The position numbers and the translations under genes were made by a program. Under the pieces are notes generated by a model that searched no databases, was not told the DNA's origin, and saw only the letters and a program-made list of their open reading frames with translations. DNA of 64,000 nt from Elusimicrobiota bacterium (GTDB lineage: Bacteria; Elusimicrobiota; Elusimicrobia; UBA1565; UBA9628). The stretch lies in contig JAPLKL010000040.1 of assembly GCA_026388095.1 (NCBI GenBank), forward strand, positions 62,001 to 126,000. The letters are read 5' to 3'. Every line of letters starts with the position of its first letter. Position 1 is the stretch's first letter. This document shows positions 2,975 through 27,415 of this stretch, in pieces.

Positions 2975-3036
2975 GGCCGCCTCCCCGATACCATAGGATG
3001 GCGCCGGCGCGGCAAAATAATGTCAAATCCCCGAGG

Positions 3037-5100: not shown

Positions 5101-5106
5101 GCCCCT

Positions 5107-5155
5107 ATTGTGAGGCGGAAAGGCCTAGTTCCGCAGTGGCCTAGGACCCAGGCCC
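5107..5155 (-). promoter_or_regulatory. Candidate leaderless promoter with GGCC boxes for 3037-5100
   Basis: On the minus strand, GGGCCTGGGTCC (5155-5144) sits 44-55 nt before the start, AGGCCTTTCCGCC lies at 5126-5114, and CACAAT (5112-5107) is 6 nt before the ATG. The hexamer departs from TANNNT at its first base, so this is weaker than the other promoters of this class. Confidence 0.4.
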
Positions 5156-5190
5156 TTCTGGGTCTTTAGACCTCCTGATTCCGACTTCCT

Positions 5191-5229
5191 GGGACCAAGA
5201 CCCCGATCGGACCCGGCAAAGGCTATAAT
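5191..5229 (+). promoter_or_regulatory. Leaderless promoter of the FGE-fold gene
   Basis: A consensus TATAAT at 5224-5229 is 9 nt before the ATG at 5239, so transcription should start at or within a few bases of the start codon. GGGACCAAG (5191-5199) occupies -48 to -40 from the start codon. No TTGACA-like -35 is present. Confidence 0.65.
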
Positions 5230-5238
5230 ACGGCGCGG

Positions 5239-6045: not shown

Positions 6046-7037
6046 AGCTTGCCCCAGCGGTGCTCCATGTCCTGCCTGACGTTGTCCTTGGTGATGAGCT
6101 TGACCGGCGTCAGCTGCACTCCCACCGCGACGCCGTCGTTGTCGAGGGTCGCGTCGACGGCGACGGGCTGCCGGCGGATCAGGCGCAGGGCCGCCTCGTA
6201 GGCGGCGCGGCCGATCTTGGCCGGCATCTTGTCGATATCGGCCGCGAGGCGGCCGGAGGCGACGGCTTCGCACGCGTCCCGGTCCGCATCCGCCCCCACC
6301 ACGAGGGCCGGCCGGGATAGATGGAGCGCCTCCGCGGCGTCCAAGGCTCCCATCGCCATCCCGCTGTTGTTGGCGAGTATCCCTTGGACGGCGTCCGGGT
6401 AGCGCGCATACGCCTCTCGCGCCGTGTCCCGCGCCAGGTCCCGCGACCAGCCCTGATGGGGTCGGCGCAGGAGGATGTTGATGCCCGGGTATCTCGCCAG
6501 GGCCTCGAGATTGCCCTGCGTGATGTCTTGGGCCACGGAGTTGCCGGTCGCGCCCTCCAGCAGGACGATGTTGCCTTTCCCTCCGAGCCTCTGCGCCAAG
6601 TACTCGGCCTGCAGCTGGCCCGCGCGCCGGCTGTCCGCGGTGACGTAGAGCCGCACGTAGACTCCCTTGGGAAGCCGGTCCATCGCGATGACCGGTATCC
6701 CGGCCGTGGTGACTTGCTGCACGAGCTCTCCGACCGTGGCCGTGTCGACCGCGTGCAGGATGAGCACGTCCACTCCTTGCGCGATGAGGCCTTCGACGTT
6801 CGCCTGTTCCCGGGCCGGGCTGTTCTCCGCCGAAGTCCAGATCAGCTCGACCCGGTCGGCCGCCTGCCGCTCGACCATCTCCTGCTGCATGAACGAATAG
6901 ACCGCCTCGTGCATGGTGGCCACGCTGACGCCGATCTTCGGGGTCTTGGCGGGAGCGCAGGCGCAGGCCGCCGACAGCAGGGCGCAGACCGCGGCGAGAG
7001 GCAGTGGGTGCCTGGTTCTCACGTCTTCACGATTCAT
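6042..7037 (-). CDS. Sugar-binding lipoprotein (periplasmic binding protein, RbsB/XylF type)
   Basis: 331 residues with a lipoprotein signal peptide ending LSAAC. The mature part is a periplasmic-binding-protein type 1 domain: KIGVSVATMHEAVYSFMQQ opens the first lobe, QGVDVLILHAVDTATVGELV and AGIPVIAMDRLP match the ribose/xylose-binding pattern, and ILANNSGMAMGALDAAE and VVGADADRDACEAVASG form the second lobe. These proteins deliver a sugar to an ABC permease or act as a chemosensory ligand binder; no permease or ATPase is encoded nearby. It lies directly downstream of the acetyltransferase gene (stop and start share TGAAATGA), so the two are an operon, possibly handling amino sugars. Its 3' end overlaps the FGE-fold gene by four bases. 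Confidence 0.85.
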   Translation of the reverse strand: MNREDVRTRHPLPLAAVCALLSAACACAPAKTPKIGVSVATMHEAVYSFMQQEMVERQAADRVELIWTSAENSPAREQANVEGLIAQGVDVLILHAVDTATVGELVQQVTTAGIPVIAMDRLPKGVYVRLYVTADSRRAGQLQAEYLAQRLGGKGNIVLLEGATGNSVAQDITQGNLEALARYPGINILLRRPHQGWSRDLARDTAREAYARYPDAVQGILANNSGMAMGALDAAEALHLSRPALVVGADADRDACEAVASGRLAADIDKMPAKIGRAAYEAALRLIRRQPVAVDATLDNDGVAVGVQLTPVKLITKDNVRQDMEHRWGKL

Positions 7038-7038
7038 T

Positions 7039-8172
7039 TCATACCTTGATGAATATCCGCTTGCGGTAGAGGAGCCACATCAAGAACCACCACAGGGCCA
7101 CATAAGAGGCGCCCCAGGCCGCGGAGGAGACCCGGTCGCCGAGCCAATGCGGGATCCAGCTCTGATAAAGGCTTTGATACAGATAAGTCTTGAGGCGGAT
7201 GGCGTGCCCCGGGCCGTCTGTCCAGCGGATCCAGACCACGGAATAGGACATGAGCCCCACGCCGACGTAGGCGGCGATGGCGTTGCTGCCGTAGACGATG
7301 AAAGGCTGGGCCCAGGCCCTGATGCCCCGGATATCGATGAGCCAGTAGAACAGCGCCAGGCCCAGGAAGGCCCAGCCCGAGGTGGCCAGGACGTAAGAGG
7401 GCGTCCAAAGATTCTTATTGAGCGGAAGTCCGCGCGCCCAGAGCAGGCCCGCCGCGAGCAGCAAAGACCCGGCTAGGGCCAGGGACCCCAGCTTGCGCGC
7501 AGCGCTGCGGCCCGGCTTGCGCAAGAGCTGCCCGCAGAGCACTCCGGAGAGGGTCGTGGCCAAAGCGCCCAGCGTGGAGAGCAGACCTTCCGGGTCGTGC
7601 CCCAGCCCGGTCTTGCGGTCGATCTCGTATAGCCAGGGCAGCATGAGCTTGCTGTCCACGCGGTCGACGACGTTCGCGAACCTTTCCAATGAGCCCAAGC
7701 GCAGGATGAGTGCGTAGGCGGCCAGCAGGCCCGCGGCCCACAGCGCCTGGCCCAGGGCCTCGGTCCGCAGGACGATGATGGAGGTGCAGAGGTAGCAGAA
7801 AGCGATGCGCTGCAGGACCCCGTAGAAGCGGAAATGCCCGAGGAAGGCGCCCCAGGCGAAGAGGGCCAGGAGCGCGTTGAGGGCCGAGAGCAGGAGGGTG
7901 CGCCGGATGATCGGAGCGATGGGCGGACCGTCCTGGGCGCGCTTGCCGAAACTGTAAGTCATGGCCACGCCCATGATGAACAGGAAGAAGGGGAAGATGA
8001 GGTCCGCGGCGGTGCAGCCGTTCCAGTCCGCGTGCGCCAGGGGGGGGAAGACATGGTCCCAGTCTCCCGCGTTGTTGACCAGGAACATGGCCGCGATGGT
8101 CGCGCCCCGGAAGGCGTCCAGAGACAGGAGGCGTCCGGGCTGGGCTGGCGCGGGGGAGGTCTGCCTGTCCAT
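7039..8172 (-). CDS. NagX/HGSNAT-type transmembrane acyltransferase (heparan-alpha-glucosaminide N-acetyltransferase family)
   Basis: 377 residues with about ten hydrophobic segments. It opens with RLLSLDAFRGATIAAMFLVN, the signature of the DUF5009/HGSNAT group, and contains CTAADLIFPFFLFIMGVAM with a following Arg-rich loop, also typical. Family members move acetyl groups across a membrane to glucosamine termini or are linked to N-acetylglucosamine use (NagX). Here the gene heads a two-gene operon with a sugar-binding lipoprotein, which supports an amino-sugar role. The start is set by TAGACT 6 nt upstream of the ATG, giving a leaderless message. It is divergent from the first potassium importer across only 37 bp. 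Confidence 0.8.
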   Translation of the reverse strand: MDRQTSPAPAQPGRLLSLDAFRGATIAAMFLVNNAGDWDHVFPPLAHADWNGCTAADLIFPFFLFIMGVAMTYSFGKRAQDGPPIAPIIRRTLLLSALNALLALFAWGAFLGHFRFYGVLQRIAFCYLCTSIIVLRTEALGQALWAAGLLAAYALILRLGSLERFANVVDRVDSKLMLPWLYEIDRKTGLGHDPEGLLSTLGALATTLSGVLCGQLLRKPGRSAARKLGSLALAGSLLLAAGLLWARGLPLNKNLWTPSYVLATSGWAFLGLALFYWLIDIRGIRAWAQPFIVYGSNAIAAYVGVGLMSYSVVWIRWTDGPGHAIRLKTYLYQSLYQSWIPHWLGDRVSSAAWGASYVALWWFLMWLLYRKRIFIKV

Positions 8173-8178
8173 GCCGAG

Positions 8179-8199
8179 AGTCTAACAATTTCATATAAT
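8179..8199. promoter_or_regulatory. Back-to-back divergent leaderless promoters in a 37-bp spacer
   Basis: Minus strand: TAGACT (8184-8179), 6 nt from the ATG at 8172. Plus strand: TATAAT (8194-8199), 10 nt from the GTG at 8210. The two -10 hexamers are 9 bp apart, so the RNA polymerase footprints overlap completely and the promoters cannot both be occupied at once. Confidence 0.7.
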
Positions 8200-8209
8200 C
8201 CCATGGCCC

Positions 8210-10168
8210 GTGTTTGACCGGATCCGGCTCCTCCTTTTCGGCGCGCCCCGAGACCTCAACGACCCGCAGCTGCACCATCGCGTCTCGCTGGTGGCCTTCC
8301 TGGCCTGGATAGGCTTGGGCGCGGACGGGCTGTCCTCTTCCTGCTACGGCCCTGACGAGGCTTTCCGGGCCCTAGGCCCCCACTCGCACCTGGCCATCCT
8401 GCTCGCCGTCATGACCGCGGTCACCATCTTCGTCATCGCCGTGGCCTATTCCAACGTCATCGAGCATTTCCCAGGCGGCGGCGGCGGCTACCTGGTGGCG
8501 ACCAAGCTCCTGGGCGAGAAGGCCGGCGTGGTCTCGGGCTGCGCTTTGATCGTGGATTACGTCCTGACCATAACGGTGTCGGTGGCCAGCGGCTGCGACG
8601 CCCTCTGGTCGTTTTTGCCTCCGCATTGGGCGGCCTACAAGCTCTGGGCGGAGTTCTTGGTCCTGGTATTCCTCGTGGTCCTCAATCTGCGCGGGGTCAA
8701 GGAATCCGTCACCGCGCTGGCCCCCATCTTCCTGCTCTTCGTGGGCACGCACGTCTTCCTCATCCTCTACGCCTTGGGCAGCCATCTGACCGGCCTGCCC
8801 GCGATCCTGCACGGGGCGGCCTCCGACCTGCACTCTTCCGTCAGTTCCATCGGAGGCTTGGCCGTGGGACTCATCGTCCTGCGCGCCTACTCCATGGGCG
8901 GCGGCACCTACACGGGCATCGAGGCCGTGTCCAACGGAATCACCATGCTGCGCGAGCCGCGGGTGCAAACCGGCAAGAAGACCATGGCGCTCATGGCCAG
9001 CTCGCTGGCCTTCACGGCCGGGGGTATCCTGATGGGCTACCTGCTGGTGGATGCCATGCCAATGCCGGGCAAGACCATGAACGCGGTCCTGCTGGAGAAT
9101 CTCTTCTCCTCCTGGAGGTTGGGCGGGCTCCCCCTGGGGCAGGTCGTCATCATCACGACCTTGCTCACGGAAACGGCCATCCTTTTCGTGGCGGCGCAGA
9201 CGGGCTTCCTGGGCGGGCCTCCGGTCCTGGCCAACATGGCCGTGGACTCCTGGGCGCCCCGTATGTTCGCGCAGCTTTCGGAGCGTCTGGTGGCCAAGGA
9301 CGGGGTCCTGCTCATGGGCGCCGCGGCCATCGCCGTGCTCTTCTACACCCGCGGCAACATCACGACCTTGGTGGTCATGTACTCCATCAACGTCTTCCTC
9401 ACCTTCTCGCTGACCGAACTGGGCATGACGCGGCTTTGGAGCGGCCTGCGGGGCAAGGACCCGCGCTGGAAGGTCCAGTTGCCCATCCATGTCACGGGAC
9501 TGGTCATGTGCGTGTGCATCCTCGGCGTGACCCTCTACGAGAAATTCTCGGAGGGCGGCTGGGTCACCGCGGCCATCACCGGCTGCGCCATCGGCCTGTG
9601 CCTCCTCATCCGGCGCCATTACAATGCGGTCCGCTTCGAGATGCGGCGGCTCGACAGCCTGCTGGATATCCCCGTGCCCACCAACGGGCCGGCCTTGCCG
9701 GAACTGGACAAGACGGCGCCGACCGCGGTGGTCATGGTGGGCGGCTTCTCCGGCTTCGGCTTGCACCAGGTCCTCTCCATCCAGAGGCTGTTCCCTAACC
9801 ACTTCAAGACCTTCGTCTTCCTATCCGTAGGCGTGGTGGATTCGGGCAACTTCAAGGGCTCCTCCGAGATCCAGCGGCTGGAGGAGCGCACCTCCGGGGA
9901 GCTGCAGCGCTACGTGGACTGGTGCCGGGCCCACGGCTTCCAGGCCGCCTACCGTTTCGCCCTGGACACGGAGACCGTCCCCGCCCTGGAGAGATTGTGC
10001 CTGGAGGTGGGCAAGGAGTTCCCGCGCGCCATCTTCTTCTCGGGCAAGCTCATCTTCAAAGAGGAGAAGTTCACCCAGCGCTTCCTGCACAACGAGACCG
10101 CCCTGGCCATCCAGCGGCGCCTGCAGTTCGACGGCCTGCAGACCGTGGTCCTGCCTATCCGGGCCTGA
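8210..10168 (+). CDS. KimA/YdaO-type APC-superfamily potassium importer, copy 1
   Basis: 652 residues: about twelve membrane spans up to residue 470, then a soluble C-terminal domain. The N-terminal blocks GLGADGLSSSCYGPDEAF, FPGGGGGYLVATKLLG and VDYVLTITVSVASGCDALW correspond to the APC fold and resemble the KimA (YdaO) K+/H+ symporter group. The C-terminal domain (AVVMVGGFSGFGLHQVLSI to LQTVVLPIRA) should lie in the cytosol, where c-di-AMP binds in KimA. The start is GTG: the ATG at 8203 is stopped after four codons, and TATAAT is 10 nt before the GTG. The neighbour at 10396 is a close copy and the kdp operon follows, so K+ uptake is well supported by context. An amino-acid permease role is the alternative. 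Confidence 0.75.
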   Translation: MFDRIRLLLFGAPRDLNDPQLHHRVSLVAFLAWIGLGADGLSSSCYGPDEAFRALGPHSHLAILLAVMTAVTIFVIAVAYSNVIEHFPGGGGGYLVATKLLGEKAGVVSGCALIVDYVLTITVSVASGCDALWSFLPPHWAAYKLWAEFLVLVFLVVLNLRGVKESVTALAPIFLLFVGTHVFLILYALGSHLTGLPAILHGAASDLHSSVSSIGGLAVGLIVLRAYSMGGGTYTGIEAVSNGITMLREPRVQTGKKTMALMASSLAFTAGGILMGYLLVDAMPMPGKTMNAVLLENLFSSWRLGGLPLGQVVIITTLLTETAILFVAAQTGFLGGPPVLANMAVDSWAPRMFAQLSERLVAKDGVLLMGAAAIAVLFYTRGNITTLVVMYSINVFLTFSLTELGMTRLWSGLRGKDPRWKVQLPIHVTGLVMCVCILGVTLYEKFSEGGWVTAAITGCAIGLCLLIRRHYNAVRFEMRRLDSLLDIPVPTNGPALPELDKTAPTAVVMVGGFSGFGLHQVLSIQRLFPNHFKTFVFLSVGVVDSGNFKGSSEIQRLEERTSGELQRYVDWCRAHGFQAAYRFALDTETVPALERLCLEVGKEFPRAIFFSGKLIFKEEKFTQRFLHNETALAIQRRLQFDGLQTVVLPIRA

Positions 10169-10180
10169 CCGCGGATTTGG

Positions 10181-10335
10181 TATAATCACTTAGCACAGCC
10201 TAAAGCCGATGCCTACGGCATCGGCTGCGGGGGACCCAAACTCCCCGGAAGTCACGGGGATGGGGCGCAGGGCGCGAGAAAAGCGCGTCCAGGTCACTTC
10301 CATGACCCAGCCCGTCAGCTAACCTCGCCGGCATT
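10181..10335 (+). promoter_or_regulatory. c-di-AMP riboswitch (ydaO-yuaA class) with its promoter
   Basis: TATAAT at 10181-10186 starts an RNA of about 200 nt ahead of the second importer. The leader carries the class-defining words: GCGGGGGACCCAA (10227-10239), a G-run ATGGGG (10260-10265) in place of the usual UUGGGGUGAAUC, and near the 3' end CCCGTCAGCTAACCTCG (10311-10327) followed by CCGGC. A 9-bp hairpin GCCGATGCC/GGCATCGGC (10205-10225) and a GCGC hairpin (10271-10288) fill variable positions. In Bacillus and many other bacteria this RNA turns off K+ uptake genes such as kimA and ktrAB when c-di-AMP is high. The downstream gene is exactly of that kind. Confidence 0.88.
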
Positions 10336-10367
10336 TGGAAGGGTGATCCTGCCGACCGCCGTCGCGG

Positions 10368-10385
10368 CCCTGGGTCCCCAGGGAG
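10368..10385 (+). promoter_or_regulatory. Hairpin masking the ribosome binding site (riboswitch expression platform)
   Basis: CCCTGGG (10368-10374) pairs with CCCAGGG (10377-10383), and the 3' arm contains part of the only Shine-Dalgarno-like run, GGGAG (10381-10385), before the ATG at 10396. There is no U-tract, so control is more likely translational than by termination. Confidence 0.5.
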
Positions 10386-10395
10386 AGCGACTCGC

Positions 10396-12357
10396 ATGTT
10401 CGACCGGCTCCGGCTCCTGCTGTTCGGCGCGCCCCGCGACCTCAACGACCCGCAACTCTATCATAGGGTCTCTTTGGTCGCCTTCTTGGCCTGGGTCGGC
10501 TTGGGCGCGGATGGGCTGTCCTCCTCCTGCTACGGCCCGGACGAGGCATTCCGCGCTTTGGGCCCGCACTCGCATCTTGCCATCCTGCTGGCCCTGATGA
10601 CGGCCGTCACCATCGGTGTCATAGCCATCGCCTACTCCAACGTCATCGAGCATTTCCCGGGCGGCGGAGGCGGCTACCTGGTGGCGACCAAGCTCCTGGG
10701 CGAGAAGGCCGGGGTGGTGTCCGGCTGCGCCTTGCTCGTGGACTATGTCCTGACCATCGCGGTGTCCATCGCCAGCGGCTGCGACGCCCTCTGGTCCTTC
10801 CTGCCTCCGCAGTGGGCGGCCTACAAGCTCTGGGCGGAATTCGCGGTCCTGGTATTCCTCGTGGTCCTGAACATGCGCGGCGTGAAGGAATCCGTCACAT
10901 TCCTGGTCCCCATCTTCCTGCTCTTCGTCGCCAGCCACGTCTTCCTCATCCTCTACGCCTTGGGCAGCCATCTGACCGGCCTGCCCGCCATAGTCCATGG
11001 CGCCGCCTCGGACCTGCACACATCGGTCCGTTCGATCGGGCCCTTGGCCGTGGGCCTCATCCTCCTGCGCGCCTACTCCATGGGCGGCGGGACCTACACG
11101 GGCATCGAGGCCGTGTCCAACGGCATCAGCATCCTCCGCGAGCCCCGGGTGCAGACCGGCAAGAGGACCATGGCGCTCATGGCCGGGTCCTTGGCCTTCA
11201 CGGCCGGGGGCATCCTGCTGGCCTATCTGCTGGTCGAAGCGGTGCCGGAGGCGGGCAAGACCATGAACGCGGTCCTGCTGGAGCGGCTCTTCGGCTCCTG
11301 GAACCTCGGTCCGCTGCCTCTGGGCAAGGGCATCGTGATAACGACCTTGGTCTCCGAGGCGGTGCTCCTTTTCGTCGCCGCACAGACCGGATTCCTGGAT
11401 GGGCCGCGCGTGCTGGCGAACATGGCCGTGGACTCCTGGGTGCCCCGCCGCTTCTCCCAGCTCTCCGAGCGCCTAGTCACCAAGGACGGCATCCTGCTCA
11501 TGGGCGCCGCGGCCATCGCCGTGCTCTTCTACACCCGCGGCGACATCACCATGCTGGTGGTCATGTATTCCATAAACGTCTTCCTCACCTTCTCGCTGAC
11601 CGAACTGGGCATGGCCCGGCACTGGCTCAAGGAGCGGCAGACACAGCCGCGCTGGAAGAGCCAGTTCGCCATCCAGGCCGCGGGCTTGGTCATGTGCCTG
11701 AGCATCCTCGGCGTCACTCTTTACGAGAAGTTCTCGGAGGGCGGCTGGGTCACGGCGGCCATCACCTGCGGGGTTATAGCCATCTGCTTCCTCATCCGCC
11801 GACACTATAACAAGGTGCGCTATGAGATGCGGCGGCTCGACAGCCTGCTCGACATCCCGGTGCCGCAGGACCAGCGCGAGCTCCCGCCCTTGGACAAGAA
11901 GGCGCCGACCGCGGTGGTCATGGTGGGGGGCTTCTCCGGCTTCGGCCTGCACCAGATACTCTCCATCCAGAAGCTGTTCCCCCAATACTTCAAGAACTTC
12001 GTTTTCCTGTCCGTGGGCGTGGTGGATTCCGGGAATTTCAAGGGTTCCTCGGAGATTCAACGGCTCGAGGAGCGGACCGGCCAGGAACTGCAGCGCTATG
12101 TGGACTGGTGCCAGGCCCACGGCTTTCCCGCCGCCTACCGCTTCGCCATGGACACGGAGGCCGTCGCCGCGCTCGAGGAACTCTGCCGCGAGGTCTTTCG
12201 CGAGTTCCCGCGCGCCATCTTCTTCACCGGCAAGCTGATCTTCAAAGAGGAGAAGTTCACCCACCAACTCCTGCACAACGACACGGCCTTCGCCATCCAG
12301 AGGCGCCTGCAGTTCGACGGCCTGCAGACCGTGATCCTGCCCATCCGGGCCGGTTGA
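10396..12357 (+). CDS. KimA/YdaO-type APC-superfamily potassium importer, copy 2 (riboswitch-controlled)
   Basis: 653 residues, collinear with copy 1 and identical over long stretches by eye, including GLGADGLSSSCYGPDEAF, EHFPGGGGGYLVATKLLGEK and the cytosolic domain. Differences concentrate in membrane helices and loops, for example EAVPEAGKTMNAVLLERLF against DAMPMPGKTMNAVLLENLF. This is a tandem duplication in which only the second copy lies behind a c-di-AMP riboswitch, while the first has a leaderless promoter. The simplest reading is one importer insensitive to c-di-AMP at the RNA level and one shut off by it. Its stop is 3 bp from the convergent kdpE stop. Confidence 0.78.
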   Translation: MFDRLRLLLFGAPRDLNDPQLYHRVSLVAFLAWVGLGADGLSSSCYGPDEAFRALGPHSHLAILLALMTAVTIGVIAIAYSNVIEHFPGGGGGYLVATKLLGEKAGVVSGCALLVDYVLTIAVSIASGCDALWSFLPPQWAAYKLWAEFAVLVFLVVLNMRGVKESVTFLVPIFLLFVASHVFLILYALGSHLTGLPAIVHGAASDLHTSVRSIGPLAVGLILLRAYSMGGGTYTGIEAVSNGISILREPRVQTGKRTMALMAGSLAFTAGGILLAYLLVEAVPEAGKTMNAVLLERLFGSWNLGPLPLGKGIVITTLVSEAVLLFVAAQTGFLDGPRVLANMAVDSWVPRRFSQLSERLVTKDGILLMGAAAIAVLFYTRGDITMLVVMYSINVFLTFSLTELGMARHWLKERQTQPRWKSQFAIQAAGLVMCLSILGVTLYEKFSEGGWVTAAITCGVIAICFLIRRHYNKVRYEMRRLDSLLDIPVPQDQRELPPLDKKAPTAVVMVGGFSGFGLHQILSIQKLFPQYFKNFVFLSVGVVDSGNFKGSSEIQRLEERTGQELQRYVDWCQAHGFPAAYRFAMDTEAVAALEELCREVFREFPRAIFFTGKLIFKEEKFTHQLLHNDTAFAIQRRLQFDGLQTVILPIRAG

Positions 12358-12360
12358 CGA

Positions 12361-13062
12361 TCAATCGCTCGGCGCTTCGAGCCGGTAGCCGACTCCGGGC
12401 TCGGTCTTGATATGGCGCGGCCTCACCGGGTCGCCCTCGATCCTGTGCCTGAGCTGATGCACGCAGATGCGCACGGATTCGGGACTGGCATCGCCTGCTT
12501 CATGCCAGACCTCCCTGATGAGCTGCTTCTGAACCACGACGCGGCCGGCGTTGCGGACCAGCACCGCCAGGAGTTCGTATTGGAGGGGGGACAGGCGCAC
12601 TTCCTTCTTGCGGACCCACACGCGGCGCGCGGCCAGGTCCACTTTAAGGCCTTCGTGCTCATAGACCGGCGGCTGGTCCTCCGGTCTTTGTTCAGCATGG
12701 CGGAAGGCCACGCGCATGCGCGCCAAGAGCTCTTCTACTCCGAACGGCTTGGTCAGATAGTCATCCGCGCCCGCGTCGAGCCCTGCGATCTTGTCGTTTT
12801 CCTGGCCCCGGGCGGAGAGGATGATGACCGGAGCCGCGGTCCATTGGCGCAGGCGCTTCAAGACATCGATGCCGTCCATGTCCGGAAGCATCAGGTCGAG
12901 GAGGACCATGTCGGGCTTGCGCGCGGCGGCCGATTCCAAGGCGCTGCGGCCATCGGTGGCTTCGATGACGCGGAAGCCGTTCTCCTGCAGCGCCGAGCGC
13001 AGGAAGCGCAGGATCGGCAGCTCGTCTTCTACCACCAGGACCGTCCGCTCACTCGCGGCCAT
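12361..13062 (-). CDS. kdpE: KdpE response regulator
   Basis: 233 residues, OmpR/PhoB class. The receiver domain (1-120) has the acidic pair VVEDE, the phospho-acceptor Asp56 in LLDLMLP, and the conserved Lys in YLTKPFG. The C-terminal winged-helix domain has the segment RLSPLQYELLAVLVRNAGRV and ends with the wing KTEPGVGYRLE. Phosphorylated by KdpD, it activates kdpFABC when K+ is limiting. The start chosen is the ATG at 13062, which overlaps the kdpD end by 14 bp; longer in-frame starts lie deep in kdpD. It is the last gene of the operon. Confidence 0.95.
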   Translation of the reverse strand: MAASERTVLVVEDELPILRFLRSALQENGFRVIEATDGRSALESAAARKPDMVLLDLMLPDMDGIDVLKRLRQWTAAPVIILSARGQENDKIAGLDAGADDYLTKPFGVEELLARMRVAFRHAEQRPEDQPPVYEHEGLKVDLAARRVWVRKKEVRLSPLQYELLAVLVRNAGRVVVQKQLIREVWHEAGDASPESVRICVHQLRHRIEGDPVRPRHIKTEPGVGYRLEAPSD

Positions 13063-15709
13063 GAGCCCCTCCCAGCGGCAGTGTGAAGCGGAATACGGCT
13101 CCGCCTCCGGCGCGGTTCTCCGCCCAGATCTTGCCGCCATGGGCTTCGACCACGGCACGACAGATGGCGAGGCCCAAGCCGGCCCCGGCCGAGGCTGATT
13201 TGGCGTGATAGAACTTCTCGAACACCTGCTCCTGCTCGCCTGCCGCCAAGCCGGGGCCGCGGTCCGCCACTTCGATCCGCACCGAATCATTCTCAAGCCT
13301 TGCTGAGAGCGCTATGGCCGTGCCGGCCGGGGTATGGCGGGCGGCGTTCTCCAGCAGATTGACGAAGACCTGTTCCATCAGCACGCTGTCGAGCGGGACC
13401 ATGGGCAGGTCCTCGGGGATGCCCGTGGCCACCTCTCGTCCGGTCAGGGACTTCTCCACTCGCCCCAAAGAAGTGCCCACCAGATCCTCGATGGAGTGCG
13501 GCTCCTTGCGCAACTGGATATTGCCGGAGGTCAGACGCGTGGTCTCGATGAGGTTGTGCACGAGCCGGGAGAGCCGTTCCCCCTCCTCCCGGATATTCTC
13601 CAGGAGCTCCCGTTCATTATCGCCCCTCTGCGCGCCGCTCTGGAGCAGGCTGCTTGCCGAGCCGATGATGGCCGCAAGAGGCGTGCGCAAATCGTGGGAC
13701 ACCGAGCTCAACAGCGAACTGCGCAGGCGTTCCTTCTCCGCGTCCAGTTGGGCCTGCTTGGCGTTGTCCTGCAGGCGGTCGACTTCGAGCGCCAGGGCCA
13801 ACTGGTGCGCGAAGGACTCCAGCAGGAGCATCTGATCCGGGATGAGCAGGCGCTCGCGCACCCGGGGCCGCACGCGCAGGACTCCCACGGAGCCTTCCGC
13901 GCCGATGAGCGGGGCGTAGAGCGCGTCTACGACCGGCAAGGTCTGCGTGCCCAGCCCCGCCGACTGGCCGAGGTCGAAGACCCACTGCGCCACGCTGCGC
14001 TCTTTCTCATCGAGCTCCCGCTTGGCGCCCGAGGCGGCTTTCACCTCGAGCCGGCCGTCCGGTCCCGACATCAAGGCGATGATCTCGCTGTCGAAGACCT
14101 GCGCCACATGGCGCACGGCCACCTCCAGGATGGCGTCCACGCCGCGGGTGCTGGCGAGCTGGCGGCTCAGGGCGTGCATCATGGCCGTGCGCATCTCGCC
14201 GAGCCGGGCCGACTCGGCCTGGGCCCGCATGCGCACGGTCAGCTGACTGATGATCAGGGCCAAGACGAACATGACCAGGAAGGTCAGCAGGTATTGGGTA
14301 TCCGAGACCGAGAGGCTGAACCGAGGCGGCACGAAGCAGAAGTCGAAGGCCAGGACGCCCAGCGCGGCGGAAAGGATGGCGGGCCCGCGGTGTCCCCGCG
14401 TCGCGACCAGAAGGGTGCCGAGGAGATAGACCATGACGAGGTTCGCCAAGGAGACGAAGGGGAACATCCCGAAACAGGCCGCGGTGCAGACTGCCACGGC
14501 CAAGGCGCAGACGCCATATTCCGTGGTCGGTGCGAACCTGGGAGTCAGGACGCCCGGGGAGGGAGCCGCGGGGCCCGGCTCGCCGCGGATCACGTAGACG
14601 TCGATATCTCCGCTGCGGCGTATGAGATCGTCTACGACGCTGCCGGTCATGAGTTCCAGCCAGCGGGGGCGCCCCGTCTTGCCTACGATGATCTTCGTGA
14701 CGTTGCGTTGCCGCGCCAGGTCCAAAGTCCCTTCCACTACGTCGCGTGAGGACAGGGACAAGGTCTCCGCGCCCAGACGCTCGGCCAGGCGCAAGTTCTC
14801 GATGGCGCCGGCGTGCGCGGCCTCCGAGAGCGCCTGCCGCTGGGACTCCACGAAGACCGCGAGCCACTGGGCGCGCAGTCCGGCGGCCAAGCGCTTGGCC
14901 GCGCGCACGAGCTTCGCGGAATTGGGCCCGGGGCCCACGCAGACCAGCAGGCGTTCCGCCGTCGGCCAGATCGTGCCCGGCGCCTGCCGGCGGCGCTGCT
15001 CCTCGACGCTCACGCCGACGCCCTCGGCGGTGGCGCGCAGGGAGAGTTCGCGCAGGGCGTTCAAGTTCGAGAGCTTGAAGAAGCTCTCGACGGCGCGGGC
15101 GGCCTGCTCCGGGATGTAGACCTTGCCCTCGCGCAGGCGTACCAGGAGTTCCTCCGGCGGCAGGTCCACCAGTTCCACGTCGGCGCGCTCCAGCACGGAA
15201 TCCGGGACCGTCTCCTGGACAATCACGCCCGTGATCTGAGCGACCACGTCGTTGAGGCTCTCCAGGTGCTGGACGTTGAGGGTGCTGTAGACGTCGAAGC
15301 CCCGGTCGAGCAGCTCCGCCACGTCCTGCCAGCGTTTGGCGTGGCGGCAGCCCGGGGCGTTGGTGTGGGCCAATTCGTCGATGAGCATGAGGGCGGGCTT
15401 GCGCAAAAGAGCGCCATCGATGTCGAATTCCGTGAGCTTGACGCCCCGGTGGTCGATGCTCTTGCGGGGCAATATCTCCAGCCCCTGGAGCAAGGCCTCG
15501 GTCTCCTGGCGCCCATGCGTCTCGACCAGGCCGATAAGCACGTCGACACCCTCGGCCTTCCTGCCCTGGGCGGCTTGCAGCATGGAGTAAGTCTTTCCGA
15601 CTCCGGGCGCGGCGCCCAGGAATACCTTGAGGCGGCCTCTGCCGTGCCGAGCCTGGTCCTGTCTGGCCTCGGCCAGGAATGCTTCAGGTGAGGGGCGCCT
15701 TGGTTCCAT
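13049..15709 (-). CDS. kdpD: KdpD sensor histidine kinase
   Basis: 886 residues with the full KdpD layout. The N-terminal KdpD domain has Walker A GAAPGVGKTYSML and Walker-B-like LIDELAHTNAPG, followed by the NVQHLES block. Then come a universal-stress-like domain (LLVCVGPGPNSAKLVRAAKR), four membrane spans around residues 390-490, a GAF-like segment, a HisKA box with SSVSHDLRTPLAAI, and a HATPase domain with the ADRGPGL box. It senses low K+ or ionic stress and phosphorylates KdpE. The ATG at 15709 has GGGGG upstream and is preferred over the in-frame TTG at 15724, which would overlap the kdpC stop. In proteobacteria KdpD is stimulated by dephosphorylated EIIA-Ntr, and ptsN heads this operon. 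Confidence 0.95.
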   Translation of the reverse strand: MEPRRPSPEAFLAEARQDQARHGRGRLKVFLGAAPGVGKTYSMLQAAQGRKAEGVDVLIGLVETHGRQETEALLQGLEILPRKSIDHRGVKLTEFDIDGALLRKPALMLIDELAHTNAPGCRHAKRWQDVAELLDRGFDVYSTLNVQHLESLNDVVAQITGVIVQETVPDSVLERADVELVDLPPEELLVRLREGKVYIPEQAARAVESFFKLSNLNALRELSLRATAEGVGVSVEEQRRRQAPGTIWPTAERLLVCVGPGPNSAKLVRAAKRLAAGLRAQWLAVFVESQRQALSEAAHAGAIENLRLAERLGAETLSLSSRDVVEGTLDLARQRNVTKIIVGKTGRPRWLELMTGSVVDDLIRRSGDIDVYVIRGEPGPAAPSPGVLTPRFAPTTEYGVCALAVAVCTAACFGMFPFVSLANLVMVYLLGTLLVATRGHRGPAILSAALGVLAFDFCFVPPRFSLSVSDTQYLLTFLVMFVLALIISQLTVRMRAQAESARLGEMRTAMMHALSRQLASTRGVDAILEVAVRHVAQVFDSEIIALMSGPDGRLEVKAASGAKRELDEKERSVAQWVFDLGQSAGLGTQTLPVVDALYAPLIGAEGSVGVLRVRPRVRERLLIPDQMLLLESFAHQLALALEVDRLQDNAKQAQLDAEKERLRSSLLSSVSHDLRTPLAAIIGSASSLLQSGAQRGDNERELLENIREEGERLSRLVHNLIETTRLTSGNIQLRKEPHSIEDLVGTSLGRVEKSLTGREVATGIPEDLPMVPLDSVLMEQVFVNLLENAARHTPAGTAIALSARLENDSVRIEVADRGPGLAAGEQEQVFEKFYHAKSASAGAGLGLAICRAVVEAHGGKIWAENRAGGGAVFRFTLPLGGAHGRE

Positions 15710-15720
15710 CAGGCCCCCAT

Positions 15721-16302
15721 TCAACCGCTTTTATGCATATTATTCAATTCGAGATTCAATTCCAGGACGTTGACCGCCGGTTCGCCAAGGATGCCGAGCC
15801 ACCGGCCTTGGGTGTGCCGCTCGATGAGGAGCCGTATATCCTCCTCGGGGATGCCGCGATGACCGGCCACCCGGCGGGCCTGATAATACGCGGCTGCCGG
15901 GCTGATGTGCGGGTCCAGGCCGCTGGCCGAAGCCGTGACCAAGTCCACTGGGATCGGGTCCGTGTTGCCGCGGTCCGCGTCCTTGAGCGCCTGGATGCGC
16001 GCCTGCACCGCCTTGAGCAAAGCGGGATTGAGAGGGCCGAGGTTCGAGCCTGAGGAATTGGAGGCGTTGTATGGCACGTCCGTGGCCGAGAGGCGTCCCC
16101 AGAAGAATTTCGGGTCATCGAAGGGCTGGCCTATGAGCTGGGAGCCTGCCGGCTTGCCCTCTCGCAGCAAAAAGCTCCCGTTGGCCTGCCGGGCCAGGCA
16201 CAGCTGCGCCACGGCGGTGACGGCGAGCGGGTAGATGAGCCCGGTCAAAGCCGACAGGACGGCCAGGGCCAGGATCGCGGTCTTCAATTGTCTGATGAAC
16301 AT
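15721..16302 (-). CDS. kdpC: KdpC, potassium-transporting ATPase subunit C
   Basis: 193 residues: one N-terminal membrane helix (LALAVLSALTGLIYPLAVTAVAQ), then a periplasmic domain with family blocks GSQLIGQPFDDPKFFWGRLSA, GSNLGPLNPAL, PVDLVTASASGLDPHISPAAA and an invariant-type NVLELN near the end. It stabilises the KdpFABC complex and promotes ATP and K+ binding. It lies 8 bp downstream of kdpB and just upstream of kdpD. Confidence 0.95.
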   Translation of the reverse strand: MFIRQLKTAILALAVLSALTGLIYPLAVTAVAQLCLARQANGSFLLREGKPAGSQLIGQPFDDPKFFWGRLSATDVPYNASNSSGSNLGPLNPALLKAVQARIQALKDADRGNTDPIPVDLVTASASGLDPHISPAAAYYQARRVAGHRGIPEEDIRLLIERHTQGRWLGILGEPAVNVLELNLELNNMHKSG

Positions 16303-16310
16303 GATTCCCT

Positions 16311-18386
16311 CTATATGAGATGCAGCGCCACGAGCAGCATGTCGATGAGCTTGATGCCGACGAAGGGCGCGATGATGCCGCCCACCCCGTAGATGAGGAT
16401 ATGGTCCCGCAGGAGACGGACCGCGGGCACGGCACGGTAGCGGACTCCCTTGAGGGCCAGAGGGATGAGCAGGATGATGACGAGGGCATTGAAGATCACG
16501 GCCGAGAGGATGGCGCTCTCGGGCGTGGACAGATGCATGATGTTAAGCACCTTCAAGGCGGGATAAGTGCCGGCGAAGGCGGCCGGGATGATGGCGAAGT
16601 ACTTTGACACGTCGTTGGCCACGCTGAAGGTGGTCAGGGCTCCTCGCGTGATCAAAAGCTGCTTGCCGATCTCCACGATCTCGATGAGCTTGGTGGGGTT
16701 GGAGTCGAGGTCCACCATGTTGCCCGCTTCCTTGGCCGCCTGCGTGCCCGCGTTCATGGCCACGGCCACGTCCGCCTGCGCCAGGGCCGGGGCGTCGTTG
16801 GTGCCGTCTCCGGCCATGGCCACCAGGCGTCCGCCGCGCTGGGCCTCGCGGATGAGTTCGAGCTTGGCCTCGGGCGTGGCCTGCGCGAGGAAGTCGTCCA
16901 CGCCGGCCTCGGCCGCGATGGCTGCCGCGGTCATGGCATTGTCGCCGGTGATCATCACGGTCTTGATGCCCATGGCCCGCAGTTGGGCGAAGCGCTCCCG
17001 GATGCCGCCCTTGACGATGTCTTTGAGGTGGATGACTCCCAGGACCTGCTGGCGGTCCGCGACGACCAAGGGCGTGCCGCCGTCCTTGGCGATGCGCTCC
17101 ACGCTGGCCGTGACCTCGGCGGACATGCTGCCGCCCCGTTCCTTGACGTAAGCGGCGATGGCGTCCGTCGCGCCTTTGCGGATATTACGCCCGTCGTGGA
17201 GGTCCACGCCGCTCATGCGGGTCTGGGCCGAGAATGGGATGAAGGCCGCGCCCAGGTCGTGGATGCGGCGCTCGCGGATGCCGTATTTGTCCTTGGCCAG
17301 GACCACGATGCTGCGGCCTTCCGGCGTCTCGTCCGACAGCGAGGCTATCTGCGCCGCGTCAGCCAGCGTTTCGGTCGTCACGCCCTGGGCCGGCAGGAAA
17401 GCCACGGCCTGCCGGTTGCCCAGCGTGATGGTCCCGGTCTTGTCGAGCAGGAGCACGTCCACGTCGCCCGCCGCCTCCACCGCGCGGCCGGACGTGGCGA
17501 TGACGTTGGCCTGGATCATCCGGTCCATGCCCGCTATGCCGATGGCGGCCAAGAGCCCGCCGATGGTGGTGGGGATCAGGCAGACCAAAAGCGCCACCAA
17601 AGCGGTCACGGTGACCGCGCTGCCCCGGCCGGCCGCGCCCACGCTGAAGAGCGAATAGGGCAGCAAGGTCGCGGTGGCCAGGAGGAAGATGATGGTCATG
17701 CCCGCGAGGAGTATGCTCAGGGCGATCTCGTTGGGGGTCTTCTGCCTCTTGGCTCCTTCCACCATGGCGATCATCTGGTCGAGGAAGGTCTCCCCGGGAT
17801 TGGCCGTGACGCGCACCACCAGCCAGTCCGAGAGCACCGTGGTCCCGCCGGTCACCGCGCTGCGGTCGCCGCCGCTCTCGCGGATGACCGGGGCGCTCTC
17901 CCCGGTGATGGCCGCCTCGTTGACCGAGGCCACGCCCTCGATGACCTCGCCGTCCATGGGGATGATGTCTCCGGCCTCGACGAGCACGAAATCGCCCTTG
18001 CGCAGCTCGCCGGAATAGACCTTCGCCGCAGCGGCGTCGCGCTTGGGCCCTGCGAGCTTCTTGGCGAAGACGCTCTGTCGCGACTCGCGCAAGGTGGCGG
18101 CCTGGGCCTTGCCGCGGCCCTCGGCCATGGCCTCGGCGAAATTCGCGAAGACCACGGTGAACCACAGCCAGACCGAGATGCCCAGGATGAAGCCGGCCGA
18201 GGCTTCGCCATGGCCGAGCCAGGCTTGGAAGAAGAGGCCCGTCGTGAGCAGGCTTCCCACTTCCACCACGAACATGACGGGATTCTTGATCTGGTGGCGG
18301 GGATCGAGCTTGCGGAAGGAATCCAGGGCCGCCGGCCAGACGATGGCGGGATCGAACAGCTTCTTCGGCTGGTGCGTATGGATCAT
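16311..18386 (-). CDS. kdpB: KdpB, P-type ATPase catalytic subunit
   Basis: 691 residues, normal length. The actuator motif ITGESAPV, the phosphorylation site [16 protein letters not shown], the nucleotide-binding KGAT motif and the hinge [20 protein letters not shown] are intact, followed by [20 protein letters not shown], which is diagnostic for KdpB. The N-terminus [20 protein letters not shown] is also KdpB-specific. It hydrolyses ATP to drive high-affinity K+ import through KdpA. It follows kdpA with a one-base gap. Confidence 0.97.
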
Positions 18387-23424: not shown

Positions 23425-24723
23425 CTAGCCGCGCCCCCGCCTCTTCGACCAGCGGAGCTCTTCAGCTATGCGGCTGAGCAGGCACACGGCCCCCTCGAAG
23501 CCCAGATAGGGGCGGTCGTGGAAGGCGTGGCTGTGGTAGGATGGGAAACCGAGCTCGACCGCGCGCCGGCCGTCTCTGCCCTCCTGGCGCTGCTGCTGGG
23601 CGCCGAGCATGCAATCGAACCCGTCCGCTTCGGACCAGCCGCGCATGAGCTCCGCGTAGCTCGCCTCGGTCGGGGCCTCGTGCACGGGGAACGGCAGGTC
23701 GTCCCAGGCGCCGAGTTCCCGCCGGTGCTGAGGCCCCGCCATGGCGACGGCCCCCACCATGCGCCCGCCGACCTCCGAGAGCTGGCGGGCCAGGGGCCGC
23801 ACCAGGACGGGGTCTCCGGTGAACACGAAAGTCGAGTGCAGGAACAGCTCCTCCACTGCCCATTCGAGCCGGGGCAGCAGGCGCGCGAGTTCCTGGTCGG
23901 CGAAGGCCTGCGCTTGCGCCTGGCGGCCCACGGCCGCTCCCACCTTGACCAGCCAGTCCGCCGAGGCGCCCAGGCCGAGCGGCAGCCCGCACTCGACTAC
24001 AGGCACCCCGAGCCGCCCGGCGAGGCGGGCCGCCGCTTCGCGACCGTAAGGCAGCGACAGGATACTGCCCGCGCTCGCCGCGGCGCTGAGCCCCCCGAGG
24101 TCGGTGCCGCCCGGCCACACCGAGACCAGGTTGAGGCCGATGGCCGCCAGCATGCGCCGGAGCTCCAGGAGGTTGGCGGCATGGTCGCGCTCTCCGCGGT
24201 CGTGCATATAGCCCACGATGGCGACGTCCTCCGGCCGACGCTCGCGCTCCGGCAGGGGCATCCCCTTGGCCAAGGCCAGCAAGGTGTGGGCATAGCCGTC
24301 GAGCCAGTCGTCGGAGACGGCTCCCCCCAGGACCGGGAAGAAGGGGACCTTAGGCTTGGGCTCGAGGCCGCGCCAGACCGTCTCATAGGGCGCGCCCGAT
24401 ATCCGCGCCATGGGGTAACCCGCGGCCAGGACCGCGCCGCAGCCGGGGACCGCCGCCAGCCTGCCCAGCCGGAGCGCGAGATCCTTCAGGTTGCCCGAGA
24501 CGACCAGTTCAGTCATGGTGCCCGAGACCTGGACCCGGTCGGCGCCCCCGCTGTCCCAGAGCGTCGAGGTCGCGTCGTGGCTGCCTTGGATGAATCCCGG
24601 CCGCCAGAGCGCGCAGGTCGGAGCGTCGAGCAGGAGGAAGGCGTCGCTCACCGCGTTGACGGCGAGCTCGACTCCGGTGGAGTAGGGGTGGTTGAGCACC
24701 GCCGTGGGGCCCGGTGTCTTCAT
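23425..24723 (-). CDS. Nitrogenase component 1-like protein (NifK/NifE type), third gene of the operon
   Basis: 432 residues, oxidoreductase/nitrogenase component 1 fold. Recognisable parts are HPYSTGVELAVNAVSDAF, DAPTCALW with Cys37 at the first P-cluster position, VSGTMTELVVSGNLKDL, VPGCGAV (Cys95) and the later GFPSYHSHAFHDRPYLGFEG, which resembles the NifK/BchB end (RPxxGYEG). It has fewer cysteines than nitrogenase MoFe beta, so the cluster set differs. It is coupled to the upstream gene by ATGA. With the neighbours it should form a two-component reductase; the substrate is unknown. Confidence 0.78.
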   Translation of the reverse strand: MKTPGPTAVLNHPYSTGVELAVNAVSDAFLLLDAPTCALWRPGFIQGSHDATSTLWDSGGADRVQVSGTMTELVVSGNLKDLALRLGRLAAVPGCGAVLAAGYPMARISGAPYETVWRGLEPKPKVPFFPVLGGAVSDDWLDGYAHTLLALAKGMPLPERERRPEDVAIVGYMHDRGERDHAANLLELRRMLAAIGLNLVSVWPGGTDLGGLSAAASAGSILSLPYGREAAARLAGRLGVPVVECGLPLGLGASADWLVKVGAAVGRQAQAQAFADQELARLLPRLEWAVEELFLHSTFVFTGDPVLVRPLARQLSEVGGRMVGAVAMAGPQHRRELGAWDDLPFPVHEAPTEASYAELMRGWSEADGFDCMLGAQQQRQEGRDGRRAVELGFPSYHSHAFHDRPYLGFEGAVCLLSRIAEELRWSKRRGRG

Positions 24724-26540
24724 GGATCTCCTCGCAGGCGCCTTGAGTTCTCGCGGAAGAACGGCAGCTCGCAGCGCTCCACCAGCCGCCTGAGGCTGCG
24801 CAGCGCGCCGGCCAATCCCATCTCCAGGTCTCTCAGCGAGAATCCCGCCAGGCCGTTGCGAGTGAGGCGGCGGTCGTTCCTGACGTTCGAGTAGACGATG
24901 GCCAGCCCTCCCTTCCGGAAGCTCTGGAGCAGCTCGTCGGGGCCGCTGAACGGGACCACGCGGTGCCGGTCAGCTTCCGGCAGGCCGGCGAGCAAAGACG
25001 CCAGGGTCGGGTCATCGGGCCGGCCGCTCTCCCGGAACGCCAGGAAATCGAGGCCGAACCCCATCTCGGCCAGCAGGGCCGGCACCTGGACCCCGCCGGA
25101 GAGCCCGGGGTCGGCCAGCCGCGCCGCGTCGCCGGGCCCCACCACGAAGCCGGCCCGATGCGCGGCGGCGCGTTGGCGCAGACGGTCCCACTCCGGCTGG
25201 AACGTCTTGTCGAGCCCGGCCAGCGAGGACTCCAGGCGGGCCGCCACGGCGCCTCCCAGACAGGTACCGACCTCGCGCAGCCATCTCAGCGCGCCGTCCC
25301 GGCCGTAGGGCGCGCAGCCCTGCATCGTGCGCAGACCTTGGGCCTCGACGAGCACCTCGTAGACCTCGCGGTAGTAGGCGTTGGGCATGAGGACCTGCAC
25401 CGCGGCCTTCCGGTAATCGGCCAGGCTCTCCGGGGAGACCTCGGGCAGGATGGCGGCGTTGAGCTCGGCGCCGATGTCGGCGAGCAGGCTCACGAGCTCG
25501 TCGCGGCCGCGCGTGCGCCGGAAGCCCGCGAGATTGAAGCGGCCGTCCTGAGCCCGGGAAGGGGTCGGGGGCGCGGCGGAGAGCTCCTTGAGGATATGCC
25601 GGGAGAGGCTCTCTTGATGGCAGTTCACGGAAGACATGTCGCTGAACACGACCTTCCGCCCGGTCCGCTCCTGGAACCGCGCCAGCGGCCCCCGCACGTC
25701 GTCGCCGGTCATCATGGGGATGCAGCAGTTGTAGAACTGGAGGCTGAGCCGCGAGGGGTCGTCCTGGAGGAGTTCCAGGATGCCTTCGACCTTGCGCACC
25801 CCCGTGCCGTGGATCACGTCCTGGTCGTCGATCAAGGCCAGGTACTCCGGGGGCCCGCCGGTCGGGCTCGCGCCGCCCGCGTCCTTGGTGAACGCCCAGG
25901 GGGTCTGGGCGACGCCGTCGATGTAAAGATGCCCTTTCTGGCACTCCAGGTCGCCGTAGCGGATGGAGCACGTAGCGCCCGAGAGCATATAGGCCCCCAG
26001 GAAGGTCTCTCCCGGGCACCACTCGATGGCCGAGAAACAGCAGAACTCCCGCCATTGGTCGGGATGGGCCCAGTCCTCGCAGTGGGGCCCCGGCAGGGGC
26101 GGCTCCTTCTCGCCCGGCGCGGACGCATGGGGGGCATGGAGGGGCTGGGCCGGCACGGCCCGCGACTCGACGAGCTTTAAGAAGCGCTCGAAGGGGGTGC
26201 CGTCGAGCCGGGCTCCCAGCCGCGCCAAGGCGAACTGGTGCAGCGCCGTGAAGCCTCCTTCCTGCGGTTGGGGGGAGAGCTTCAAGGTCCGGCCGTTGAA
26301 GGCCCACGGCTCGCCGCCGGCCGGGGACATGGCGAGCCAGGCCTCCGCGCCGGAGTCGTCTTGGAACACGAACCAGAGCACGGAATCGCTCTCGACTCCG
26401 ACCCCGACCAGCCTGGCCCCGGCGCTTTCAGGGTCTCCGGCCAGGCCGAGATGCCTATCGATGAGGGCCAGGACCTGTTGCGGGGCGCGCCCTTTGCAAT
26501 GGGGTAAGCCGGCCTTCGGGGCCTGGGCCGTCGGGCTCAC
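24720..26540 (-). CDS. Nitrogenase component 1-like protein with extra N-terminal domain
   Basis: 606 residues, GTG start overlapping the previous stop (GTGA). Residues 1-130 form a domain I do not recognise. Residues about 150-600 are component-1-like: a Cys-rich segment (Cys154, 167, 168, 175, 191, 200) spans FSAIEWCPGETFLGAYMLSG, and FYNCCIPMMTGDDV (Cys272/273) matches the NifD/BchN motif C-xx-xxIGDD at the third P-cluster cysteine. LMPNAYYREVYEV and TMQGCAPYGRDG follow. It presumably pairs with the 23425-24723 product. The unusual length and cysteine-dense stretch set it apart from nif, bch/chl and cfb proteins. Confidence 0.72.
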   Translation of the reverse strand: MSPTAQAPKAGLPHCKGRAPQQVLALIDRHLGLAGDPESAGARLVGVGVESDSVLWFVFQDDSGAEAWLAMSPAGGEPWAFNGRTLKLSPQPQEGGFTALHQFALARLGARLDGTPFERFLKLVESRAVPAQPLHAPHASAPGEKEPPLPGPHCEDWAHPDQWREFCCFSAIEWCPGETFLGAYMLSGATCSIRYGDLECQKGHLYIDGVAQTPWAFTKDAGGASPTGGPPEYLALIDDQDVIHGTGVRKVEGILELLQDDPSRLSLQFYNCCIPMMTGDDVRGPLARFQERTGRKVVFSDMSSVNCHQESLSRHILKELSAAPPTPSRAQDGRFNLAGFRRTRGRDELVSLLADIGAELNAAILPEVSPESLADYRKAAVQVLMPNAYYREVYEVLVEAQGLRTMQGCAPYGRDGALRWLREVGTCLGGAVAARLESSLAGLDKTFQPEWDRLRQRAAAHRAGFVVGPGDAARLADPGLSGGVQVPALLAEMGFGLDFLAFRESGRPDDPTLASLLAGLPEADRHRVVPFSGPDELLQSFRKGGLAIVYSNVRNDRRLTRNGLAGFSLRDLEMGLAGALRSLRRLVERCELPFFRENSRRLRGDP

Positions 26541-27415
26541 TTCCGGGGGAGTTTCGGGCGTGATGGGATCCTCTTCCGCGCCGGCCGGACGGATTTCCTT
26601 GCGGCCGGCGGCTCGGCCTCGCTCAGGAACCGGTCCAGGGCCGCGTCGTCGAGCGGCTTGGGCAGGGGCAAGGCGGCGGGGTCGAGGCCGCGCAGCCTCT
26701 CGGCCAAGCGGGCGAACTCCGCGCTGACCTTGGACTTGGGCGCGAACTGGGAGACGGTCTGATTCGCGCGCTCCGCGCTGCGCACCAGAGGCTCGGCTCC
26801 GAAATTGGCCAGCAGGCTCGTCCCCAGGCGCTCCGCGAAGCTCTCCAGCACGCCTTGGGCCGCCTCGGCGTCGTAGCGGCAGTTGCCGATGAGCCCGGCC
26901 AGAACCGCTCCGCTGCCGGCGTAGGTGCAGACCATGCGCGCGAGGTTGTTGGCCGCGAAGAGCGACATCGGCTCGTCGGAGAGGACCACCGCCACTTTGC
27001 GCACGAAGCCGTTCCGCAGGGGCGCGGCGAAGCCGCCGCAGACGAGGTCCCCGAGCACGTCGAAGACCGCGACGTCGTAGCGGTCTTCCTCGAGCAGGCG
27101 CAGGCGCTCGAAGTGCTCCATGGCCATGATGATGCCGCGCCCCGCGCAGCCGACGCCGGGCACCGGCCCCCCGGTCTCCACGCAGTCGATGCCGTCGGCG
27201 GAGCGCTCGATGGCCTGGCGCGGGTCTCCCGGGAAGGCCACGTCCGCCACGCTGGTGCGGGCGCGCCGGCCCAGCAGCCGGAGCGTCGAGTCGCGCTTCG
27301 GGTCGCAGCCCACGTGGAACACGCGCAGGCCGCTCTTGGCGTAGAGGTAGCTGAGGTTGGTGGCTATGGTCGACTTGCCGCCGCCGCCCTTCCCGAACAG
27401 CGCTATCCGTTCCAT
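26537..27415 (-). CDS. NifH/BchL-like iron protein (nitrogenase paralogue reductase)
   Basis: 292 residues. The P-loop is GKGGGGKST (8-16), and GCDPKRDST follows strand 2 as in NifH. The two [4Fe-4S] ligands are intact: Cys90 in PGVGCAGRGI and Cys126 in VLGDLVCGGFA. The C-terminus is a basic tail (KRIPSRPKLPRK) not found in NifH. It should be an ATP-dependent electron donor to the two component-1-like proteins downstream, which overlap it as GTGA and ATGA. No nifB, nifEN-type maturase pair or nif regulators are present, so nitrogen fixation is unlikely. Confidence 0.88.
   Translation of the reverse strand: MERIALFGKGGGGKSTIATNLSYLYAKSGLRVFHVGCDPKRDSTLRLLGRRARTSVADVAFPGDPRQAIERSADGIDCVETGGPVPGVGCAGRGIIMAMEHFERLRLLEEDRYDVAVFDVLGDLVCGGFAAPLRNGFVRKVAVVLSDEPMSLFAANNLARMVCTYAGSGAVLAGLIGNCRYDAEAAQGVLESFAERLGTSLLANFGAEPLVRSAERANQTVSQFAPKSKVSAEFARLAERLRGLDPAALPLPKPLDDAALDRFLSEAEPPAARKSVRPARKRIPSRPKLPRK

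Follow-up and report, generated by a model that had tools for sequence, protein, structure and literature searches.

A three-gene nitrogenase-like operon of an Elusimicrobiota bacterium, an isolated branch of a little-described reductase family

Locus and gene structure

The window, meaning the whole stretch of 64,000 nucleotides that was analysed (G000:C40:62001-126000), belongs to an Elusimicrobiota genome of 4.6 Mb that is 97.6% complete, and it carries a trio of genes, here called H, D and K. The H gene (26537..27415, minus strand) encodes a NifH-like ATP-dependent reductase of 292 aa with the P-loop GKGGGGKST and the cluster cysteines Cys90 and Cys126, both of which are kept in all rows of the joint alignment. 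It is followed by D (24720..26540, minus strand), a component-1 alpha-like subunit of 606 aa with a GTG start in a GTGA overlap with H, and by K (23425..24723, minus strand), a component-1 beta-like subunit of 432 aa with an ATG start in an ATGA overlap with D. The initial annotation had described this overlapping H-D-K arrangement and the NifH-like protein with its two cluster cysteines, and the coordinates, lengths, overlaps and residues all proved exact. An orthologous trio, 71-83% identical, was found in a groundwater Elusimicrobia genome (G229; MAG NC_groundwater_1678, Elusimicrobia bacterium), with 4-base overlaps at both junctions.

Pfam assigned H to Fer4_NifH (PF00142, E 1.7e-66) and both D (E 2.3e-13) and K (E 2.7e-34) to Oxidored_nitro (PF00148), in each case well above the cut-off. 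Among the NCBIfam equivalogs, every score of H was far under the cut-off, including those for CfbC (233 bits, cut-off 402), NifH (231 bits, cut-off 394), BchL (153 bits, cut-off 345) and BchX (143 bits, cut-off 331), and the CfbD model was matched by neither D nor K in the same search.

Cysteine pattern and predicted folds

The D protein has 13 cysteines, six of which (C154, C167, C168, C175, C191 and C200) lie within the 47 residues 154-200 (25941..26081, minus strand), a density seen in 1% of trials when D itself was shuffled. This stretch had been pointed out beforehand together with the motif NCCIPMMTGDD (residues 271-281; 25698..25730, minus strand), which includes C272 and C273, and both are present in the 606-residue protein as described. 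All six stretch cysteines are kept in the G229 ortholog and most of them are absent from the other subtypes, so the stretch is, as judged from the aligned sequences, a feature of the subtype, which is known from two sequences.

Three cysteines recur across the family, namely the invariant D C200 (57/57 sequences) and D C273 (60/60) and the nearly invariant K C37 (49/55), and the residue preceding C200, E199 in the window, is Glu or rarely Asp throughout. In alignments, all three coincide with P-cluster cysteines of both Nif and methylthio-alkane reductase (Mar), the Mar ligands being MarD C66/C91/C158 and MarK C32/C56/C121 (PMC12552129), and C273 corresponds to the third P-cluster Cys of NifD/MarD. 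In the joint alignment K keeps one of the three K-side P-cluster Cys positions, the other two being absent. The first D-side ligand would be C175 by spacing, as it stands 25 residues before C200 (compare MarD C66-C91), and C168 by the joint alignment, in which C168 pairs with a Cys of NifD and a Cys of BchN. Such extra cysteines vary: C168 of D is shared by the window type with several H-D fusions, other subtypes have K C106, and most Myxococcota members have Cys at neither position. No Cys was found in the window D at the cofactor-ligand position (MarD C270, NifD C275), where Met385 or a neighbour is placed; the cofactor ligands of Mar are Cys270/His429. At the level of sequence, the pattern would fit the three cysteines plus one carboxylate or Cys of a [4Fe-4S]-only site of the DPOR/COR type. 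DPOR and CfbCD are reported to contain only [4Fe-4S] clusters and to be without the full Cys set (PMC12552129), and the DPOR cluster has 1Asp-3Cys ligation according to published work cited in PMC11423573. By analogy with that site of one Asp and three Cys, a single [4Fe-4S] cluster would be the simplest reading for D-K.

Models of D and K were obtained using AlphaFold2, with mean pLDDT values of 81 and 89, respectively. In Foldseek searches the D model matched NifE (in NifEN, the best match), MarD and NifD, and the K model matched VnfK, AnfK and NifN, with NifK and BchB also matched; these neighbours support the assignment of the two subunits. The N-terminal domain of D (about residues 17-126; 26163..26492, minus strand) is predicted as a small alpha/beta unit, mostly with pLDDT 73-92, in which a loop of about residues 71-95 is of low confidence. 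It had been called unrecognised and has no Pfam match; it is not peculiar to the window D, since other unfused D proteins of the family have a similar domain. Alignment by hhalign to the N-terminal domain of Myxococcota D gave a probability of 72 (E 3.4e-5), and the latter aligned to the corresponding domains of two other unfused subtypes with probabilities of 98 and 82. Uniqueness of the domain to the window D was rejected on the same hhalign comparison with Myxococcota. In the main H-D fusions only a short linker is found where unfused D proteins have the domain, and it therefore seems to belong to the unfused D proteins; that it helps D to bind H may be guessed. Derivation of the window D from a broken H-D fusion was also considered and is unsupported, as D has the N-terminal domain that fusions lack and is not nested within a fusion clade with support in the trees.

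Family distribution

Relatives of D were detected in 45 of 341 genomes of the phylum, but the ortholog only in G229, which is of the same genus (72% identity); the next best long matches in the phylum were 33-35% identical. Named genomes were scanned using the K alignment, because the D alignment was too diverse, and 76 loci were obtained from Elusimicrobia, many Myxococcota/Deltaproteobacteria (including Bradymonadales, Polyangia and an Anaeromyxobacter MAG) and a spirochaete. For some high-GC loci, genes were called with the codon usage of the window, and one locus (L177) was read from the list of open reading frames. Myxococcota have separate genes in H-D-K order; a radical SAM gene is often close by, and at some loci none lies within about 8 kb. 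Many relatives encode H and D as a single fused protein, which indicates that H and D act together. A literature search for links between nitrogenase-like genes and Myxococcota or biosynthetic clusters brought up nothing new.

Fused H-D proteins of about 740-880 aa occur in several clades of the family (for example L009 13650-16052, on G000:C69). In two Myxococcota operons (L153 9316-12240 and L148 6055), a gene for a double radical SAM protein of about 975 aa comes after H, D and K. Another protein, membrane-like and about 400 aa long (MI.....FLGLGLVVSFEDW), is found repeatedly between the radical SAM genes of the clusters (L088, L098, L101 and others; for example L101 10135-11349), and its L086 copy has no NCBIfam match.

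Genome context

The genome of the window encodes five NifH-like proteins over the Pfam cut-off and seven component-1 pairs. In the window, neither a radical SAM gene nor a nitrogenase-like gene adjoins the trio; nitrogenase-like pairs also occur at other loci of the genome, several of which are rich in radical SAM genes. The locus C64:30-43 kb holds two D/K pairs and a single H, together with radical SAM genes and a fusion of carbamoyltransferase and radical SAM; an H-D fusion of 800 aa with K, another H and radical SAM genes lie at C69:54-63 kb; a different nitrogenase-like set, termed NFL2, lies with six radical SAM genes at C64:55-69 kb; and further nitrogenase-like loci are found at C64:46-49 kb and C57:8-11 kb. 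A radical SAM protein that accompanies Myxococcota operons has its best match in this genome (45%) at C64:62330, beside another nitrogenase-like locus and not near the trio. No match to the nifB model TIGR01290 was found anywhere in the 97.6% complete genome. The earlier statement that nif maturation genes are missing thus extends, for nifB, to the whole genome, but relatives of the trio sit among radical SAM genes; likewise, the lack of partner genes is borne out within the window and not for the genome, given its other nitrogenase-like pairs. For tetrapyrrole genes, HemB and two tetrapyrrole-methylase family proteins are encoded in the genome.

Nitrogenase paralogues have reportedly been described from groundwater Elusimicrobia, where the nitrogenase-like genes are said to lie near radical SAM genes. 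The trio shares phylum and habitat with that paralogue, but has no radical SAM neighbours. The locus at C64:55-69 kb presumably fits the description better than the window trio, and NFL2 may be the published paralogue. The NFL2 set (L008, G000:C64:52001-72000, positions 3012-16642) consists of an H of 278 aa, a short D of 335 aa and a K of 413 aa; its H scored 350 bits on the nifH model, below the cut-off of 394, and three of its six radical SAM genes have a B12-binding domain match.

The carbamoyltransferase fusions (L007 15979-19353 and L084 2204-5539) combine a NodU-like carbamoyltransferase, a ferredoxin-like stretch and a radical SAM domain in one protein of 1110-1124 aa, are 63% identical between the two genomes, and are located next to D/K pairs. 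Two TPR proteins (window 47258-49120 and L084 11304-13148; 46% identical) share a contig with the trio in both genomes, at distances of 20 kb and 3 kb, possibly by coincidence.

Phylogeny

The tree of H proteins placed the window H outside a clade formed by Nif, Anf, Mar and a group IV reference (support 99/96). Concatenated H-D-K trees covered Nif, Mar, a group IV reference, DPOR and COR, with CfbCD and Isr left out, and recovered a family of 42 operons as monophyletic (100/99 with LG+G4; 99 with a mixture model). The window trio falls within this family and carries its E/D199-C200 and C273 in D and its C37 in K. With G229 it makes up an isolated pair, whose stem in the concatenated trees has a length of about 1.0, and the stem branch of the trio is long in every tree. 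Approximately unbiased (AU) tests rejected the grouping of the window pair with Nif, Mar and group IV (p 4.8e-5), its grouping with DPOR and COR alone (p 6.4e-5) and the placement of the window rows outside their own family (p 0.0019), p-values that are somewhat optimistic since the groups were named after the tree was seen. The earlier suggestion of a nitrogenase-like reductase outside the known functional clades holds for the tested Nif, Mar, group IV reference, DPOR and COR.

The DPOR and COR clade was the sister of the family (96/96 with LG+G4; SH-aLRT 95 with the mixture model). When COR was removed DPOR became unplaced (support 24), and when DPOR was removed COR stayed; for this reason DPOR/COR are named with moderate confidence as the nearest known clade, across long branches. 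On the aligned sequences, the trio is an isolated subclade with G229 in a little-described family, here mainly of Elusimicrobiota and Myxococcota with one spirochaete. The alternative offered initially, an Elusimicrobia group or a new branch, survives as to the isolated branch, but the family is not confined to Elusimicrobia and includes Myxococcota with the same H-D-K order. The superfamily tree would gain a group near DPOR/COR that is useful for the question of gain or loss of the P-cluster and cofactor.

Comparison with known systems

The trio resembles the group V enzymes DPOR (BchLNB) and COR (BchXYZ) in having an ATP-dependent H with a heteromeric D-K, and in a predicted cluster site of few cysteines with neither the full P-cluster set nor the cofactor Cys. 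It differs from them in lying outside the DPOR+COR clade, in an H that falls far under the BchL and BchX cut-offs, in the extra N-terminal domain of D, in a K-side ligand that is Cys in the window and Asp at that place in BchB, and in that no bch/chl partners are seen with it. CfbCD of F430 biosynthesis is similar in that the CfbC and NifH models score H about equally, and putatively also in being a [4Fe-4S]-only reductase; it is unlike the trio in its CfbC component, as H remains far under that cut-off, and in CfbD being a homodimer whereas the trio has a separate K. Compared with Nif, Vnf and Anf (groups I-III), the window H is below the NifH cut-off and outside the Nif/Anf clade, the six P-cluster cysteines are incomplete, D is without the cofactor Cys, and nifB is absent.

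Proposed function and alternative explanations

We consider it fairly likely that the trio encodes an ATP-driven, two-component, [4Fe-4S]-only reductase of the nitrogenase-like superfamily that is DPOR/COR-like rather than nitrogenase-like, and nitrogen fixation is probably not its function; the presence of a nifH-like gene in these phyla should not be taken as a sign of nitrogen fixation. By homology, H would form a dimer with one [4Fe-4S] cluster held by Cys90 and Cys126, hydrolyse ATP and hand low-potential electrons to the D-K complex. The latter would hold one small Fe-S cluster at the D/K interface, most likely [4Fe-4S], on D C200, D C273, K C37 and a fourth ligand, which may be D C168 (or C175) in the window subtype or the family-wide acid D E199. 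Since the full P-cluster site, the cofactor Cys and nifB are all missing, the active site would probably be a pocket between D and K in which an organic substrate is reduced directly; by default, one would guess that a C=C or C=N bond undergoes two-electron reduction. As substrate, a radical-SAM pathway intermediate is favoured because relatives of the trio sit in such clusters, weakly so for the window copy; a tetrapyrrole substrate, which HemB in the genome might bring to mind, has no direct support.

A fuller version of this proposal is offered tentatively, and we hold it as possible rather than probable. The trio would be an isolated subtype of a separate [4Fe-4S]-only group of nitrogenase-like reductases that spans Elusimicrobiota and Myxococcota, numbers six pairs in this genome after an expansion, and acts on natural products made by radical SAM enzymes through an unusual Glu-Cys/Cys/Cys site; the subtype would have rebuilt the cluster site with D-side cysteines. 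To our knowledge, the reaction has been established for only a few nitrogenase-like enzymes. The reactions are the reduction of protochlorophyllide and chlorophyllide, a step of F430 biosynthesis, and the C-S chemistry of Mar and Isr. New reductive chemistry would come from a further family that is large, has a cluster-ligand pattern of its own and is present in many copies per genome, often next to radical SAM enzymes.

A second or larger cluster is possible, as 12 of the 13 D cysteines are kept in the ortholog. In its specific form, in which the six cysteines of D 154-200, C272/C273, K C37 and K C95 together bind more than four iron atoms, it draws on the retention of all of these residues, including K C95, in G229 and on the absence of most of them from other subtypes, but a subtype of two sequences tests conservation weakly and the prediction for D residues 131-157 and 176-183 has low confidence, so that this form is unlikely.

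Slightly less likely still is a scaffold or maturase role, with D-K resembling NifEN and building or repairing a cofactor for another nitrogenase-like pair of the cell. NifEN is the best Foldseek match of D, the D profile finds NifE (after Mar), and the six other component-1 pairs of the genome are possible customers; however, NifEN acts on the L-cluster made by NifB, for which this genome has no gene, and similar operons stand alone in Myxococcota.

The G229 trio lies at a contig end and shares its contig with further D/K pairs, with radical SAM genes and with a fusion of carbamoyltransferase and radical SAM, and the window trio is without such neighbours and has a long stem branch, as might be expected of a paralogue of a biosynthetic-cluster reductase that became separated from its partners and is now drifting or without function. 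We regard such a stranded copy as improbable, since the frames are intact, the 4-base overlaps occur in both species, and dN/dS between the window and G229 (H 0.26, D 0.35, K 0.34) points to purifying selection.

Least probable is a cofactor-bearing reductase of the methylthio-alkane or isethionate reductase type that cleaves C-S bonds with a large Fe-S cluster: MarHDK of R. rubrum (PDB 9FMG/9D9U; PMC12552129) is, in sequence, the solved structure closest to the profiles of D and K, and some QVFC-subtype paralogues of this genome have a Cys near the cofactor-ligand position, but the window trio lacks the Cys270 equivalent, keeps one of three P-cluster cysteines in K, and belongs to a separate clade (the Nif, Mar and group IV grouping being rejected), and the genome has no gene matching the NifB model, the type of the MarB partner.

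A mar-like operon with the same H-D-K gene order as the trio was noted on a plasmid of Candidatus Chlorohelix (L126, NZ_CP128401.1). It is annotated as nifB-nifH-'nitrogenase component 1' and is probably a methylthio-alkane reductase operon, its H scoring 501 bits against MarH (9FMG) and 287 bits against the best NifH.
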